In this document: positions 9,941-30,294 of the stretch, one piece after another
Layout of the letters: each line of letters starts with the position of its first letter
Position numbering within the stretch: the first letter of the stretch is position 1
Assembly: GCA_024644745.1 (NCBI GenBank)
Contig: JAHEHF010000026.1
Coordinates: forward strand, 1 to 38,050
DNA: 38,050 bases
Reading direction: 5' to 3'
From: Flavobacteriaceae bacterium
GTDB lineage: Bacteria > Bacteroidota > Bacteroidia > Flavobacteriales > Flavobacteriaceae
Notes under the pieces: model-generated
The model's database searches: none
Told to the model about the DNA's origin: nothing
What the model saw: only the letters and a program-made list of their open reading frames with translations
Position numbers and translations under genes: made by a program

Positions 9941-11023
9941 TTACACATTGTAGACAATTCCGCTGCTGTGGTCTTTTGAGGCCCCGGTGACACTGCTGAG
10001 GCAATTCACTTCGTTCCTCTCACGCAGCAATCCTAAAAAGGCAAAAATGAGTGATTCTTTAAACTCGATGATTTCATCCGACGGGATAACCATTTCTGAT
10101 GCTGAAAAAGCAGCAATTCGCTGGATCAGAAAATCATTGAATGCGCCCCCTCCCGTGACCAGGGTTTTATGATGCGTCTTTTTACTTGATAGCGCAACCC
10201 TGTTGATCACCATGGCAATCTGCCCGGCTATATGCTCTATAAAAGTTCTGAGAATATCTGCTGGCTTCAGACCAAATCGATCGATCAAGGGCAAAATTGT
10301 TTCCACAACAAATTCATAACCCAGAGATTTTGGTTGTTTTAGTGTATAAAAAGGCAAAGCATCAAGGGACTTCAGCAATCCTTTGTGCAGGACACCCCCG
10401 GATGCCATGAGGCCTTTGTCATCATATTCCAGACCGATCTGCCTTGTATAATGATTCAACACAATATTCGCCGGACCAATGTCGAAGGCAAGCCTTTGCC
10501 CTTTTTTTTGATATGAAATATTCGCAAAACCACCCAGATTCAGGCAAAAATCATAATTCTGAAAAAGCAATTGGTCCCCGATCGGGACCAATGGGGCACC
10601 CTGTCCGCCCAGTGCAATATCCTGTGTCCTGAAATCACAAATCACCTTGCATCCTGATACGGCAGACAAACAGGCTCCATTTCCAATTTGAAGGGTATAT
10701 CCCTGTTCCGGACGGTGAAAAACAGTATGTCCGTGAGAGGCGATGAAATCCGGATTTTTGATCTCATACCTATCCATGAAATCAAGAACAAGCTCTCCAA
10801 GAAATTTACCGTAATCAGCGTTGAGTTTCGTCAATTTTTCTCCCGACAGTGTAAAGGCATCCTGCAGCTTTTTTTTCCATAATTCGGAATATTTTATGCC
10901 TTCTTTTTCTAATATTACAAAATCATAAGCCTGATCAAAGGTAAATTTAACATATGTTAAATCTACGCCATCGAGAGACGTTCCGCTCATCAATCCGATC
11001 ACGTGCCACTTTTTATTTGCCAT
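9941..11023 (-). CDS. anmK: Anhydro-N-acetylmuramic acid kinase
   Basis: The 360-residue sugar kinase of the ASKHA fold begins with the diagnostic AnmK motif GLMSGTSLDGVD (residues 10-21). It also has the LGGFANIS and AFDIGPAN segments and the C-terminal VTGGGAFNDFL motif. AnmK converts 1,6-anhydro-MurNAc from cell-wall turnover to MurNAc-6-phosphate, so it belongs to peptidoglycan recycling. Length fits the family. It is divergent from the acyl-CoA dehydrogenase gene (82-bp gap). A weak -7 (TGTATTTG on the minus strand, 11038-11045) precedes it. Recycling is notable here because two de novo Mur ligases are missing or broken in the dcw operon further along the window. Confidence 0.95.
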   Translation of the reverse strand: MANKKWHVIGLMSGTSLDGVDLTYVKFTFDQAYDFVILEKEGIKYSELWKKKLQDAFTLSGEKLTKLNADYGKFLGELVLDFMDRYEIKNPDFIASHGHTVFHRPEQGYTLQIGNGACLSAVSGCKVICDFRTQDIALGGQGAPLVPIGDQLLFQNYDFCLNLGGFANISYQKKGQRLAFDIGPANIVLNHYTRQIGLEYDDKGLMASGGVLHKGLLKSLDALPFYTLKQPKSLGYEFVVETILPLIDRFGLKPADILRTFIEHIAGQIAMVINRVALSSKKTHHKTLVTGGGAFNDFLIQRIAAFSASEMVIPSDEIIEFKESLIFAFLGLLRERNEVNCLSSVTGASKDHSSGIVYNV

Positions 11024-23895: not shown

Positions 23896-24624
23896 TTATT
23901 TTTCACAAACAATCTGGTTATGAAATTTTAGGTTTATCGATTTATAATCATTTATGGTACTGTCCAACATCATTTTTTGATAAAAAACTTTCAGTTTCGC
24001 AATTTTTTCTTCCATCCGGGACAAATCCCCGAAAATAATTCTTTGATCCCCTATTCTGGTCTGTAATTCAAATTGGATATTAGGTGACCCTTTAACCTGG
24101 TCTACACCAATAATTTGCTTTCTTAGGAAATCATCATTCCTGATGATATTTGACAAAATAATAATGTCTAATTCTCCTTGACCCGAAATTGTATCAGTGG
24201 TTATAGGAACCCTTGCAGAATAATTATCAGATAATGGCATTTTTATGCCTAACTTATCGTAATAATAGGTTTCCGTCTCATTAGCTACTCTTAAAACAGG
24301 TGTTCTTTGTGTAATTATTGCCCCTAATTCCCCACTTAATGTTAGAAATATTTCTGCATTTTCAATCATTTCATTGCTTCGCAAAAACTGTTCTAAATTA
24401 TTCAAATTTATATTTTCTTTCGATTGTTTAGAGTTACTCTCCAATTTTTGTATTAACAACTTATTAACCGTTTCATAACTTACAAACAGATTATCACCAT
24501 TCTCAAAAATCACCTGTACGTCCTTACTTTCTTTAAGGGAATTTCTGTGCGCGGCAAAACCATACAACAAGACAATGACAAAAAGAGAAAGTATAAATTT
24601 AATGACGTTGATGTATTTTTTCAT
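23896..24624 (-). CDS. ftsQ: Cell division protein FtsQ/DivIB
   Basis: The 242-residue protein is a bitopic divisome protein. It has a short cytoplasmic N-terminus, one transmembrane helix (about residues 6-24) and a periplasmic region of about 215 residues with POTRA/beta-like organisation (EMIENAEIFLTLSGELGAIITQRTP region). Sequence conservation of FtsQ is low. The assignment rests on topology, length and position directly before ftsA. In Bacteroidetes dcw clusters the gene before ftsQ is normally murC. Here it is murG, with a 96-bp spacer holding a stem-loop. Confidence 0.9.
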   Translation of the reverse strand: MKKYINVIKFILSLFVIVLLYGFAAHRNSLKESKDVQVIFENGDNLFVSYETVNKLLIQKLESNSKQSKENINLNNLEQFLRSNEMIENAEIFLTLSGELGAIITQRTPVLRVANETETYYYDKLGIKMPLSDNYSARVPITTDTISGQGELDIIILSNIIRNDDFLRKQIIGVDQVKGSPNIQFELQTRIGDQRIIFGDLSRMEEKIAKLKVFYQKMMLDSTINDYKSINLKFHNQIVCEK

Positions 24625-24642
24625 GTTCTTACATTTTATTAA

Positions 24643-24697
24643 AACTATGACAACCTTTTAAATAATCCCCTCACTATCCAATAAGGTTGCCATAGTT
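24643..24697 (-). repeat. 15-bp stem-loop in the murG-ftsQ spacer, where murC is expected
   Basis: aactatgacaacctt (24643-24657) and aaggttgccatagtt (24683-24697) are inverted repeats with 14 of 15 matches and a 25-nt loop. In the minus-strand transcript the single mismatch becomes a G-U pair, so the RNA stem is continuous. No strong U-run follows it. It is therefore more likely an mRNA processing or stability element, or the scar of a rearrangement, than a full terminator. Confidence 0.7.
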
Positions 24698-24720
24698 ACC
24701 AAAGTATTTAGCACATAATT

Positions 24721-25812
24721 CTATTTTAATATTTTTTCGACCTCATCAACGATGCGCTTCGTAGCATCAGGCAAGGCGAGTTTTTTAATGTTTTTTCCTA
24801 AAGAAATCTGAACTTCCTCATCGTCAACAAGGTCTCCAACAACCTTTACAAATTGACTTATATCACTTTCTTTCAATAATATAGCCGCATCCTGATCGGA
24901 TACAGCAGCTGCATTTTTGGTCTGATGGTCTTCCGCCACATTGGGAGATGGAATAAAGACCACAGGCTTACCGACAATGCACAATTCTGATATGGTACCG
25001 GCACCAGCCCTGCTGATGATGATGTCAGCAGCCGCGTATAGCAGGTCCATTTTCTCAATAAACTCATGGACCTGTACTCCTTTGGTATTGTTATGTCTCT
25101 TGTACTCCTCATAATATAACTTTCCCGACTGCCAAATGACCTGCACATTAAACTTTAAAATCGCACTCAGATATGTTTCAACGGCCTGGTTAATGGCCCT
25201 TGCACCAAGGCTGCCACCCAAGACCACGATCGTCTTCTTATTTTTGTCAAGCTGGAAATGAACCAGCGCTTCTGTTCTTTTTGTATTGATATCAAGCAGG
25301 TCCTGACGCACTGGGTTGCCTGTTTTGATCAGCTTCTCTGCAGGAAAATATTTCTCAAGTCCATCATATGCCACGCAGATCCTGTTTGCCTTTTTGGCCA
25401 GGAGTTTATTGGTAATGCCCGGATAAGAATTTTGTTCCTGTATCAGGCTTGGTATTTTTCTTTTGTTCGCCATATAAAGCGTCGGTCCGGATGCAAATCC
25501 GCCTGTTCCAATCACAACATTGGGTTTAAATTTCTTCAAGATCCTGTTTGCCCTGATCAGGCTTTGGATCAATTTAAAGGGAAAAGATAAATTTTTCAAA
25601 CTAAGGCTTCTCTGCAAACCACTGATGTTCAATCCTTGTATCGTATAACCCAATTGGGGTATTTTCTCCATCTCCATTCTTCCCTTGGCACCCACAAACA
25701 AGAATTTAGACTGAGGGTTTCTCAACTTCAATTCATTGGCAATGGCTACAGCCGGGTATATGTGACCACCCGTGCCTCCCCCGCTTAATAATATGTTAAC
25801 CGACTGCTTCAT
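24721..25812 (-). CDS. murG: Undecaprenyldiphospho-muramoylpentapeptide GlcNAc transferase
   Basis: This 363-residue GT-B glycosyltransferase converts lipid I to lipid II on the inner face of the inner membrane. The N-terminal glycine loop [14 protein letters not shown] (GGGTGGH at residues 11-17) binds the lipid-linked acceptor. The C-terminal donor half has [14 protein letters not shown], and [13 protein letters not shown] with the [10 protein letters not shown] loop that binds UDP-GlcNAc. Length is normal. The start overlaps the end of ftsW by 17 nt. Confidence 0.97.
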
Positions 25813-27004
25813 GTAATATATCCAATGGGTTTTCTAATTCTTTTTTTGGTTTCCCAAGCTCCTCTGCCGATGGGTTGGCCGCACTTACACTCAAAACAAT
25901 TCCAATCGCAAAACAGGTCATCCAAATGGATGTGCCCCCTGTGCTGATCAGTGGCAAAGGTTGTCCCGTTACCGGGAAAAGTCCAACTGCGACACTCATA
26001 TTGATCATCGCCTGAAAAACAATGGGCAGTCCTACTCCAAGAGCGAGCAGGGTGCCGAATATAGTGGATGCCTTTGTGGCAATGATGACAAACCGGAACA
26101 ACAAGCCCAGGAAAAAAATGAGGATCAGGATGGCACCGATCAAACCGAACTCTTCGCCAATAATCGCATAAATAAAATCGGATGATGACTGGGGTAAAAA
26201 ATTCTTTTGAACACTCTTGCCCGGTCCCTTCCCATAAATCTCTCCGGACGCAATGGCAATCTTGGCCTTTTCGGCCTGATAATTGTCTTCGGAATCGCCT
26301 GAAACAAAATTTTCAATCCTGTTGGACCAGGTACTGATCCTGCTTCCTTTCATCGCATCAGGAAAAGCCTTTGCGGTTAAAATGAACAAGGCCAGACTCA
26401 AAATTCCGACGCCCAGTATCGACGCGAGATATTTTAAAGGATAGCCACCCAGAAACGACAGTAACATGACCATGCTGAAGGTAATGGCCGTGGTTGAAAA
26501 ATTTGCTGGCAGGATCAGTGCCAGAACAAAACCAATTGGCAGCCACAGATACAAAAAGCTCTCTTTGAACCTGATTTCTTTTTCCTTGTTTCTTGCCAGA
26601 TATCTGGCCACATAGATCATGAGAACCACCGAAGCCAGTGTTGAGGTTTGAAATCCTATTCCCACGAAGGGGATGCTGATCCACCTGCTTGCATTGGCAC
26701 CGTCAATTACCGTTCCCTGGGTAAGTGTGTAGATGAGCAACAATATGACAACGGGCATCATCAATACCGACAATCCGCTGAAATACCTGTAGGGTATCTT
26801 GTGGGTGGTATAAACAATAACAAAACCCAGTAACAAAAGGATGGCATGCTTTAGTAAATAGCCAAGCGTTGACCCCTTTCCGGCCACATACACCAAATTG
26901 GTGCTCGCACTGTAAACGGGAAGAAATGAAAATATGGCGAGCACGGCAATGATCGCCCAGATGGTTTTATCTCCTTTTATATTTTCAAAAAATCTTGACA
27001 GCAT
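25796..27004 (-). CDS. ftsW: SEDS-family peptidoglycan polymerase FtsW
   Basis: The 402-residue polytopic protein has about ten membrane helices and belongs to the SEDS family (FtsW/RodA/SpoVE). Recognisable segments are [20 protein letters not shown], the loop [22 protein letters not shown] with its conserved Ser/Asp/Phe and Glu residues, and [12 protein letters not shown] near the end. It polymerises lipid II at the septum together with the PBP FtsI encoded upstream. Its position in the dcw operon points to FtsW rather than RodA. It begins 15 nt after the truncated murD and overlaps murG by 17 nt. Confidence 0.95.
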
Positions 27005-27019
27005 ACGATTCCTTTATGA

Positions 27020-27562
27020 TTACAATTGTCTTACAGCCTGTTTGAATTTATTACCGCAGCTTTCGTAATTTTCGCAGAGATCAGTGCCGGCTGCGGGTGA
27101 ATAAAGCACTGATTCAGCATCTCTGCATAATTTATATGCAATTTTCACTGCATCCTCTATGGCATCCGTTTCGATCATAAAATCAACGACGTTCCCGAAA
27201 GTCTCAATCAATTTATCATTATTTTTCCCCAGGCAAATGATGGCCTTCACCTTTTCATTGACAAGGGGGAGCAAAATATCGTAATCATTCACATTGCTTC
27301 CCCACACGATCCATACCGTTTCCTGCTCCATGCTCTCGAGTGCATAATAGGTGGCATTCACATTGCCGGCTTGTGCATCATTGATATACTGCGACCCATT
27401 GATCTTCAGTACCTTTTCGAGTCTGTGTTCCTCATTTTCAAAATCAGCAAGACAATTCCTTATGGTCTCTTTTCTGACCCTCATCAAATCGGACAGGGTA
27501 TTGGAGGCCATCGCGTTTTTAACGTTGAAATTTGTTTGTGATGCAAAAGATGCTATACTCAT
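27020..27562 (-). CDS. MurD-like protein reduced to the C-terminal domain, catalytic motifs altered
   Basis: This 180-residue frame sits exactly where murD belongs, between mraY and ftsW. It matches only the last part of flavobacterial MurD (normally about 445 residues): NAMASNTLSDLMRVRKETIR, EHRLEKVLKING and KVKAIICLG are well kept. The N-terminal UDP-binding domain and central ATPase domain are missing. The remaining active-site motifs are changed. The usual NDSKATN reads NDAQAGN (residues 61-67), the GGVDKGNDY loop reads WGSNVNDY, and SPACASFDLFENYEDRG reads SPAAGTDLCENYESCG (155-170). The Lys, Ser and Phe that hold D-glutamate in MurD are thus lost. A TAA lies directly upstream in frame, the start context is A-rich, and there are no internal stops. 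It is either a decaying remnant or a repurposed domain; it cannot be a D-glutamate ligase alone. Confidence 0.85.
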   Translation of the reverse strand: MSIASFASQTNFNVKNAMASNTLSDLMRVRKETIRNCLADFENEEHRLEKVLKINGSQYINDAQAGNVNATYYALESMEQETVWIVWGSNVNDYDILLPLVNEKVKAIICLGKNNDKLIETFGNVVDFMIETDAIEDAVKIAYKLCRDAESVLYSPAAGTDLCENYESCGNKFKQAVRQL

Positions 27563-27588
27563 TTACTTATGATTTATTATGAATTGAC

Positions 27589-28821
27589 TTATCTTACTTT
27601 TAATGTTAATATGGATATCACCGCCAGCAAAATGCCAACGATCCAGAATCTGGTCACGATCTTGCTTTCATGGTATCCTCTTTTTTGATAGTGATGATGC
27701 AGGGGTGACATTAGAAAAATTCTTTTCCCCTGACCCGTTTTTTTTCTGGTGTACTTGAAATATGAAACCTGAAGGACGACAGAAAGGTTCTCGGCTAAAA
27801 AGATCCCCGCCAGAATGGGAATAAGAAATTCCTTGCGGACCGACAAGGCCAGAACAGCGATCACTGCCCCAATCGTCAAACTTCCGGTATCTCCCATAAA
27901 AACTTGCGCTGGAAAAGTGTTGTACCATAAGAATCCCACCAATCCGCCCACAAAGGCACTAATGAAAATGGTCATTTCTCCTGAATTGGGTATGTACATG
28001 ACATTGAGGTAATCCGAAAAGATGATATTACCCGACACCCATGCAAAAATGGCAAGGGTCAGTACGATGATTGCCGAACTTCCTGCAGCAAGACCATCAA
28101 TTCCATCCGTAAGGTTGGCTCCGTTCGATACCGCGGTGATAATAAAAATAACCGCCAGCACGAAAATCAGCCAGACATAATCCTTGGCCTTATCACCCAT
28201 CCAGGTGATGAGTGTGGCATAATCGAATTCGTTGTTCTTTACAAAAGGAATTGTTGTTTTTGTCGATTTTTCAGCCTCCCCAAAACGGTTGGACGATACA
28301 GTCTGCGCCTGGCTGATCACGACTTCACCCTGGGGTAATTTTTCTTTGATCACCACATCAGGATTAAAATAAAGGACCAGCCCGACAAAAGTCCCGAGGG
28401 TGATCTGGCCAACGATCTTGAACCTGCCTTTGAGACCTTCCTTATTCTTTTTAAATATTTTGATATAATCATCTATGAAGCCTATGGCGCCCATCCAAAC
28501 CGTTGTAACGATCAAAATGATGATATAAATATTATCGAGTTTGGCCAACAAAAAGACTGGTATCAGTGTCGCCATGATAATGATCAATCCTCCCATGGTT
28601 GGGGTGCCCTTTTTTTGAACCTGCCCCTCAAGTCCGAGGTCCCGAATACTCTCACCAACCTGACGCCTCCTCAAAATATCAATGATCTTTCTTCCAAAAA
28701 TAGTGGAGATGAGCAGAGAGAACGCAAAAGCCATGGCAGACCTGAAGGATATGTATTGAAACAAACCGGCTCCGGGTATGCTGAAGTTTTCGTCTAAGAA
28801 TTCAAATAAATAATATAGCAT
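27589..28821 (-). CDS. mraY: Phospho-MurNAc-pentapeptide translocase MraY
   Basis: This 410-residue polytopic inner-membrane enzyme transfers phospho-MurNAc-pentapeptide from UDP to undecaprenyl phosphate, making lipid I. The aspartate motif GFIDDYIK, the [15 protein letters not shown] segment and the [12 protein letters not shown] histidine motif are all present. A long insertion (about residues 150-200, including [18 protein letters not shown]) is typical of Bacteroidetes MraY and makes it longer than the E. coli protein. It starts 9 nt after murE and is followed by the truncated murD after 26 nt. Its substrate requires MurC and MurD activity from elsewhere. Confidence 0.96.
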
Positions 28822-28830
28822 TCTCTCGTT

Positions 28831-30294
28831 CTATTTGTTTAGTTCGGTTAAAATTTCGTTGGCAATTTTGTAATCGTCAAAATCAGCCCTTTGGTCGCCT
28901 ATGATCTGATAGGTTTCATGCCCCTTGCCTGCCACGAGTATGATATCCCCCGATTGAGCCAGTTTGCATGCTGTCTTTATGGCCTGTTTTCTATCTGTGA
29001 TCGAAATGGTCTTTTTATAATTCTCCGGCCTGACGCCGGCTTCCACCTCCTTGATAATGAGCTCAGGATCCTCTCCTCTCGGGTTATCCGAGGTAAAAAC
29101 CACTACATCACTCATACTCGAGGCAATATTTCCCATTTTCGGCCTTTTGGCCCTGTCTCTTTCTCCTCCGCATCCCACAACCGTGATCACTTGCTCATTA
29201 TAGGTTCTTATGGCATTGATCGTCTCCAGGACATTCTTCAGGGCATCCGGGGTATGTGCATAGTCAATGATGGCATTGATCCCTGATTTTGAAATCGCAT
29301 GTTGAAACCTTCCGTCAACATTGTCGAGATCACTTAGAATTCTAAGGTTATCTATTTTTTCCATGCCCATCAGATCCGCGGCAGCATAAATGGCCAAAAG
29401 ATTATAGGCATTGAATGTCCCAATAAGTTTGGTCCAGATCTCCTGCCCGTCAATATTCAATAAGAGCCCCTGAAATTGATTTTCCAGGATCTTGGCTTTA
29501 TAATCGGCTTGCGTTTTCAAGGCATAACCGTACTTTTTTGCATGAGTGTTCTGGAGCATGAAAGCACCGTTTTTATCGTCGAGATTGACCAGGGCAAATG
29601 CCTCAGAAGGCAACTGATCAAAAAATGTTTTTTTAACGTTGCGGTATTCGGCGAAACTCTTGTGGTAATCTAAATGATCATGGGTCAAATTGGTAAAAAT
29701 CCCTCCTTTAAAAGAAAGGCCGGCTGTTCTCTTCTGATGAATACCATGCGAACTCACCTCCATAAAGCAATGACTCACCTTCTGACTGACCATGTCACGC
29801 AAAACCCTGTTGATCGTCACAGAATCAGGAGTGGTATGGGTTGTGGGTAAAATTGTTCCCCCGATTTTTATTTTAATGGTTGAGATCAGACCACTTTTGT
29901 AACCTGCTTTTTCAAATTGATGGGCAAGAAGGGTGGCGATGGTAGTCTTTCCATTGGTTCCCGTGACCCCGATCAGTTCCAGCTCATCCGACGGATTGTC
30001 ATAAAAATTGGAGGCTACAATAGCCAGGGCCTCATTGCTGTCGGCAACCTCTGCATAGGTCACTCCCGGAGCAGTATGATCTGGCATCTCTTCGCATATG
30101 ACCACTGTGGCGCCTTTGGATATGGCCTTGTCAATAAAATCATGCCCGTCGAACTCAATTCCTTTCTGGGCCACGAACAAACCGTGTGGTGCCAGCTTCC
30201 GCGAATCGAATTCCACCGCCGAAACCAGCACATCCGTCGATCCTTTGACTGACATTACAGCTACTCCGTACAATATGTCCTTTAATTTTTTCAA
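28831..30294 (-). CDS. murE: UDP-MurNAc-L-Ala-D-Glu:meso-diaminopimelate ligase
   Basis: The 487-residue cytosolic Mur ligase adds the third amino acid to the UDP-MurNAc peptide. The ATP-binding loop TGTNGKTT is at residues 111-118, followed by the central TTHTTPDS and HDHLDYHKSF segments. The C-terminal domain has the DNPR motif (FTSDNPRGEDP), which in MurE marks specificity for meso-diaminopimelate over lysine. Length is normal and all motifs look intact, in contrast to the MurD remnant two genes downstream. It starts 1 nt after the ftsI stop. Confidence 0.97.
   Translation of the reverse strand: MKKLKDILYGVAVMSVKGSTDVLVSAVEFDSRKLAPHGLFVAQKGIEFDGHDFIDKAISKGATVVICEEMPDHTAPGVTYAEVADSNEALAIVASNFYDNPSDELELIGVTGTNGKTTIATLLAHQFEKAGYKSGLISTIKIKIGGTILPTTHTTPDSVTINRVLRDMVSQKVSHCFMEVSSHGIHQKRTAGLSFKGGIFTNLTHDHLDYHKSFAEYRNVKKTFFDQLPSEAFALVNLDDKNGAFMLQNTHAKKYGYALKTQADYKAKILENQFQGLLLNIDGQEIWTKLIGTFNAYNLLAIYAAADLMGMEKIDNLRILSDLDNVDGRFQHAISKSGINAIIDYAHTPDALKNVLETINAIRTYNEQVITVVGCGGERDRAKRPKMGNIASSMSDVVVFTSDNPRGEDPELIIKEVEAGVRPENYKKTISITDRKQAIKTACKLAQSGDIILVAGKGHETYQIIGDQRADFDDYKIANEILTELNK

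Follow-up and report, generated by a model that had tools for sequence, protein, structure and literature searches.

A flavobacterial genus that seems to have lost MurC and MurD keeps the MurD C-terminal domain as a separate conserved protein

Of the four enzymes with which the wall peptide normally begins, a little-studied genus of the Flavobacteriaceae appears to have lost two, MurC and MurD, yet it has kept the tail of MurD as a conserved protein in its own right. MurC to MurF form the textbook ladder by which the wall peptide is built, and MurC and MurD are drug targets. The genus-wide loss of murC and murD and the conservation of the stand-alone domain are nearly certain; the genus must therefore start its wall peptide by a novel route. 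The 22 species-level genomes searched keep mraY, murG, ftsW, ftsI and murE without MurC and MurD, and a second case was found in the order, in a family here called f9. The two cases suggest that the first two rungs of the ladder are replaceable, and the genus is a natural test of the role of the MurD C-terminal domain apart from catalysis.

A MurD C-terminal domain between mraY and ftsW

The window, i.e. the whole stretch of 38,050 nucleotides that was analysed, contains a flavobacterial dcw cluster on the minus strand in the order mraZ, mraW, ftsL, ftsI, murE, mraY, MurDc, ftsW, murG, ftsQ, ftsA and ftsZ, in which MurDc denotes the stand-alone MurD C-terminal domain and the other genes were named by reading their translations. 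MurDc is a frame of 180 codons (27020..27562, minus strand) with an ATG start 26 nt past the stop codon of mraY (27589..28821, minus strand), as the preliminary description had placed it; mraY has the same position in the genus loci. The start codon corresponds to a Met within full-length MurD, and no RNA structure was found in the 26-nt spacer (27563..27588, minus strand; z +1.04). On the same strand lie the retained murE (28831..30294) on one side and ftsW (25796..27004), murG (24721..25812) and ftsQ (23896..24624) on the other.

Residues 9-179 of MurDc align to positions 269-441 of the 441 positions of the NCBIfam murD profile TIGR01087, with a score of 106.4 bits that is below the family cut-off of 211.95, the match not being full-length. 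The UDP-binding and ATPase domains are missing from the frame, and the earlier reading of a MurD reduced to its C-terminal part is borne out. A chance match was ruled out, since a 106-bit match in the exact gene slot is repeated in 20 genomes. The AlphaFold2 model had a mean pLDDT of 77.3 and was confident from residue 51 onward (block means 73-92) and weak before, and the best 33 Foldseek matches of this model were all MurD crystal structures (TMq 0.64-0.71). The structure modelling proposed beforehand thus predicts that MurDc keeps the MurD C-terminal fold, and MurDc shares with MurD this domain, in sequence and in modelled fold, as well as the position in the dcw cluster.

The preliminary description had dealt with murD only, but murC is absent as well. 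The junction between murG and ftsQ is 96 nt long in the window (24625..24720, minus strand), whereas two normal relatives (L072, L073) have a murC of 450-451 codons there. In 15 loci including the window both murG and ftsQ are near full, and there is no murC between them. A tblastn search (E < 0.05) with MurC and the N-terminal 258-262 residues of MurD as queries found no remnant of murC or of the N-terminal part of MurD in the window and 19 genus loci; the sole match was the murE gene, a paralogue. With murC lost too, what looked like a single unusual gene becomes a gap in the pathway.

Breadth of the loss of murC and murD

We searched 60 genomes, comprising the window genome, 21 others of its genus and 38 further relatives. 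MurD was found over the cut-off in 36 of them and MurC gave the same split; the 24 genomes without them were all 22 genus genomes, including that of the window, and both f9 genomes. The full-length MurD that might have been expected elsewhere in these genomes was therefore not found over the cut-off in any of the 22. The MurD C-terminal domain alone was present in 20 of the 22, and the two others, G005 and G007 (83% and 61% complete), gave no match even with a genus-specific profile. In all 19 genus loci fetched besides the window MurDc lies between mraY and ftsW. An assembly deletion, considered beforehand, is very unlikely, since the domain stands alone with near-constant length in 20 of 22 genomes.

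A survey of 296 genomes of the order, each rated at least 90% complete, revealed MurD over the cut-off in 285. The remaining 11 were the window genome, three genomes of f9, six genomes of about 300 kb from one family (f16; G226, G238, G270, G274, G289 and G297) and one other. G273 (family f7) also lacks MurD over the cut-off. Among the best 80 loci of a longer name-search listing, seven had the short frame, all of them in MAGs of the genus, and 72 were counted as not short; L173 was rejected as an eighth short MurD, since its match starts 64 bases from the locus end and murC is present. A complete MurD frame of 443-474 aa was found in 70 of the 73 loci L161-L233, the exceptions being L173, L210 and L222.

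Counts of proteins with the Mur-ligase central domain (Mur_ligase_M) agreed with this. There were four in the window genome (G000) and the same number in G011, a single contig, and in G013; these last two are rated 100% complete. The normal relatives G035 and G028 have six each. The four of the window genome were read, from their place, length and sequence, as MurE, MurF, FolC and an Mpl-type ligase. G004 has five, the extra one being a frame of 886 aa (G004:C17:194213-194845) that has the size of cyanophycin synthetase; a frame of 862 aa with this domain was seen in G007. A separate N-terminal or central half of MurD was found neither in the window genome nor by the counts in further genomes.

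Could full murC and murD genes lie outside the assembled chromosome, on a plasmid or an unbinned contig? The seven genus records found by name are MAGs, which would allow it, but neither gene was over the cut-off in any of the 22 genomes, G011 and G013 included, and the loci contain no remnant. Further, the 71 plasmid records that match flavobacterial MurD all do so with less than 60% identity, and none of the 12 plasmid matches listed is from Flavobacteriaceae. We give this explanation a very slim chance.

The neighbouring steps are retained. A near-full MurE is present in 18 of 20 genus loci and its dN/dS is low. MurI was found over the cut-off in 19 of the 22 genus genomes, which suggests that free D-Glu is still used in the genus.

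MurDc is maintained by selection, its D-Glu site is not

The copies of the genus are monophyletic in the tree (support 1.0). All 20 copies examined are open over 180-183 codons, with 182-183 codons in 18 of the 19 loci besides the window; L040 reads 209 codons from its first start codon, and the M-S-I-S start that it shares with the others lies 182 codons before its end. Stops in 10 of 20 rows of the genome search came from the match running upstream of the start codon. Random frameshifts or stops, which would have marked the syntenic genes of relatives as plain pseudogenes, were thus not observed. The dN/dS of MurDc amounted to 0.026-0.094 in 10 of 11 close pairs (the 11th was saturated), values that are rough because several dS values are near or above 1. 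They are within the range of MurG and MurE, lower than those of FtsQ in the six pairs with both measured, and mostly exceed those of MraY and FtsW. When rates were scaled to six neighbouring proteins, MurDc evolved about 1.4- to 2.5-fold faster than the corresponding domain of full MurD (the rate comparison and the tree exclude pairs with 99.5% identity or more), as expected if some constraints were dropped.

MurDc is under purifying selection and is a maintained protein, not a dying gene. The faster rate and the dN/dS above that of MraY and FtsW are what a decaying pseudogene would share, but open frames in all 20 copies, the low dN/dS and 49 columns at least 95% identical in both the MurDc and the full MurD group make such decay scarcely conceivable. 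The slowly decaying remnant of the preliminary description is likewise very unlikely, given 20 of 22 genomes and a near-constant length.

For the D-Glu site, residues were numbered by profile alignment of MurDc to E. coli MurD (1e0d), in which we take T321, K348 and S415 to be the D-Glu contact residues. K319 is the Lys of NDSK and T321 the Thr two residues further on; K348 belongs to the GGxxK stretch. In MurDc of the window K319 is replaced by Q64, T321 by G66, K348 by V91 and S415 by G159. The motifs had been read correctly beforehand as NDAQAGN and SPAAGTDLC, and the conclusion that D-Glu contacts are lost stands for G66, V91 and G159; the residues concerned are in part others than those named, and at the Phe position (F422) MurDc has Tyr166, as do other flavobacterial MurD. 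Across the genus, the T321 equivalent is Thr in 2 of 20 copies, the K348 equivalent is Lys in 8 of 20 and the S415 equivalent is Ser in 11 of 20, and the His of the GxHNxxN motif is replaced by Phe in 20 of 20. Each of these four columns is at least 97% conserved in 70 full MurD. Of the columns with 97% conservation or more in the 70 complete MurD, 19 altogether are relaxed or replaced in MurDc. Since the columns of the D-Glu site are relaxed or replaced and 49 others are kept, the D-Glu site is not the object of selection.

As judged from the alignment, the D-Glu contacts are lost in most MurDc copies. Unlike MurD, MurDc is predicted to have no D-Glu ligase activity and is most likely a non-catalytic protein. 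The proposal of a stand-alone pseudo-ligase domain kept among divisome genes is supported by the presence in 20 of 22 genomes, the near-constant length, the low dN/dS and the loss of the D-Glu site. MurDc could also be the D-Glu-binding half of a split ligase, with another Mur ligase providing the UDP/ATP domains in trans: the domain fold and the 49 columns are kept, MurI is kept, and motifs like NDSKA and SPACASYDLF are still readable in about half of the genus copies. Against this, the T321 equivalent is lost in 18 of 20 copies and the K348 equivalent in 12 of 20, a separate N-terminal or central half was not found, and f9 has no MurDc that could be detected. We regard the split ligase as highly unlikely, and the split MurD suggested earlier is not supported. 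The role of scaffold or regulator, also proposed beforehand, may still apply.

The Mpl-type ligase and a proposed dipeptide bypass

The most economical route, we infer, is a dipeptide bypass. In the ancestor of the genus murC would have been lost and murD cut to its last ~180 codons, starting at the internal Met. MurDc, encoded among mraY, ftsW and murG, would have survived as a small protein that folds but does not catalyse, and its most likely role is that of a docking or regulatory partner for cytoplasmic Mur or lipid-II proteins. The first two peptide steps would most likely be bypassed: in a single step, the sole remaining MurC/Mpl-type ligase would attach a preformed peptide containing L-Ala-D-Glu to UDP-MurNAc, after which MurE and MurF would finish as usual. 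Entry of a ready-made dipeptide in one step accounts for why MurC and MurD were lost together while MurE stayed; use of a tripeptide would make MurE needless. Since MurI is kept, AmpG-like transporters are rare and no common dipeptide ligase was found, we consider the combination of dipeptide bypass and non-catalytic partner possible rather than probable.

The Mpl-type ligase of the window genome (450 aa, contig C52) is 57-74% identical to counterparts in 13 genera of the same family that also have MurC, and only 25-26% identical to two MurC of those genera. It scored below the cut-offs of both the mpl model (TIGR01081, 174.1 of 388.7 bits) and the murC model (TIGR01082, 237.2 of 335.1 bits); its substrate is therefore not settled by family. 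By eye, it has SSPIDLRPK at the place of the Mpl motif (S/T)AFFDKRSK, and it has ELHTYSS where flavobacterial MurC has QPHLFTR or QPHLFSR. It is without the Arg of the MurC amino-acid site, going by the site residues given in PMC3060825. Its predicted activity in the bypass is the joining of L-Ala-D-Glu(-A2pm) to UDP-MurNAc. The same paper reports for Mpl of Psychrobacter rates of 1.4/min with L-Ala-D-Glu, 0.7/min with L-Ala and 260/min with the tripeptide, the dipeptide rate being ~200-fold below that of the tripeptide and assayed at 15 mM dipeptide, and it records that a murC(ts) mutant was complemented by multicopy E. coli mpl.

A shift of function in the Mpl-type ligase, MurE or their neighbours was rejected, since there was no excess of diagnostic positions. 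The Mpl-type ligase has nine loose lineage signatures, two of them at positions conserved in others, which is comparable with control genes. Arg145 is present in 17 of 17 genus copies, 2 of 2 from f9 and 3 of 29 others, the second frame of G021 and the frame of G047 being left out of these groups. G021 (9% contamination) has two Mpl-type frames (L120, L121), one of them with Val145 like some copies from outside the genus; this frame may be foreign. In five genus loci (L063-L067) an arginine deiminase/DDAH-like gene (family tested in L063) lies directly before the gene of the Mpl-type ligase, and it has no relative in three loci of other genera.

How a preformed dipeptide might be supplied was addressed at the level of candidate genes. 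An L-Ala-D/L-Glu-epimerase-like gene is located on the murI contig of the window genome; by BLAST it was found in 10 genus loci, chosen for an earlier match there, and in 7 of 8 fetched loci of genomes with MurC and MurD, and it does not explain the loss since it is also present in the latter. A gene of ~350 aa of the enolase superfamily, beside a CPBP protease and an AMP-ligase, was rejected as dipeptide epimerase because it is MenC-like. A BacD-type ATP-grasp ligase was rejected as well, since just six of the 22 genus genomes, and neither G044 nor G057 of f9, have strong PF13535 proteins; the six (G002, G005, G006, G007, G009 and G021) have a protein of ~390 aa with 204-214 bits to ATP-grasp_4, the next best value in the 60 genomes being 71. 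A second Ddl was dismissed since it is not genus-wide among the PF07478 matches listed.

If free D-Glu is still used, a further ligase is needed. A ligase so far unseen might do the missing step, with MurDc as its accessory subunit or as an independent protein. The retention of MurI (19 of 22 genomes), by which D-Glu is probably used, and of near-full MurE (18 of 20 loci) would agree with such an enzyme, and it would not be of the Mur type, as G000, G011 and G013 offer no candidate of that kind. We consider it unlikely, if well worth keeping in mind, because the PF13535 and listed PF07478 ATP-grasp proteins include no dipeptide ligase shared across the genus, and the loci examined showed no extra ligase gene, either in the dcw cluster or next to mpl and murI.

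Relation to known systems

The proposed bypass resembles murein peptide ligase, Mpl, in the one-step joining of an L-Ala-D-Glu peptide to UDP-MurNAc; in PMC3060825 Mpl is a salvage enzyme beside MurC and MurD, whereas the ligase of the genus would be the sole entry and scores below the mpl model. The MurD2/MurL route of Xanthomonas oryzae differs, according to PMC5808125, in that it starts from UDP-MurNAc-L-Ala and has a MurD-type ligase for L-Glu and an added epimerase. Loss of murC with murE/murF is already known: in the searched text of PMC9116674, walls of Buchnera of the aphid tribe Aphidini were labelled though murC, murE and/or murF are missing, and the term murD is absent from that text. 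The likeness is the loss of genes of the Mur ladder without loss of the wall; the difference is that those Buchnera are host-dependent symbionts with reduced genomes in which murE/murF were lost, whereas the genus keeps MurE. Among the literature matches listed, mostly titles and starts of abstracts, none was seen to describe bacteria that have MurE but lack both MurC and MurD, or a stand-alone MurD C-terminal domain.

MurT/GatD, a distant fold match to MurDc, is similar in that a Mur-ligase homologue was recruited outside the MurC-F series; unlike MurDc, MurT keeps the ATPase domain and is an enzyme. In Tannerella forsythia the sugar steps are reportedly missing, not MurC and MurD. In PMC6721243, on its N-acetylmuramic acid auxotrophy, it is described as a Bacteroidota lineage without common peptidoglycan biosynthesis genes.

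A parallel case in family f9

The dcw cluster of f9 (L059, L061) lacks murD and murC but is otherwise intact, and neither MurDc nor a MurD remnant was found. Both f9 genomes tested, G044 and G057, lack murI, keep an Mpl-type ligase and MurE, and have four Mur_ligase_M proteins each. Since the other 36 of the 60 genomes keep both genes, the losses in the genus and in f9 are probably independent. G070, a third f9 genome (94% complete), has three Mur_ligase_M proteins; MurD is missing and no MurE-like protein was found among the three, which may be due to incompleteness or may be a result against the model. The f9 loci concerned are L059, L061, L060, L062, L083 and L235.

Recycled or scavenged wall peptides may sustain the f9 lineage. 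Both genomes have an AmpG-like transporter (109-111 bits, cut-off 350), and its locus also contains GH3, SIS-domain and AnmK genes, families that were scanned in G044 only; by reading, the SIS-domain gene appears to be of the MurQ type. Further, G044 encodes an L-Ala-D/L-Glu-epimerase-like protein with an export-type N-terminus (by reading) beside an NlpC/P60 gene, an arrangement that fits peptide breakdown as well as supply. A similar stem-peptide auxotrophy, in which the Mpl-type ligase joins peptidoglycan peptides obtained by scavenging or recycling, would be an alternative for the genus too: the window carries a gene for AnmK, the anhydro-MurNAc kinase of peptidoglycan recycling (9941..11023, minus strand, family scan), and the seven genus records among the best 80 name-search loci are all MAGs. 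For the genus we hold it quite unlikely, given that MurI is kept and that only 2 of 22 genomes have an AmpG-like match above 100 bits, none of the 60 genomes reaching the family cut-off of 350; even within f9, no epimerase-like gene of this kind was found in G057. Of the two AmpG-like genus genomes, one (G016, L237) has the transporter gene beside genes for a NamZ exo-muramidase and a GH3/beta-lactamase-type protein.
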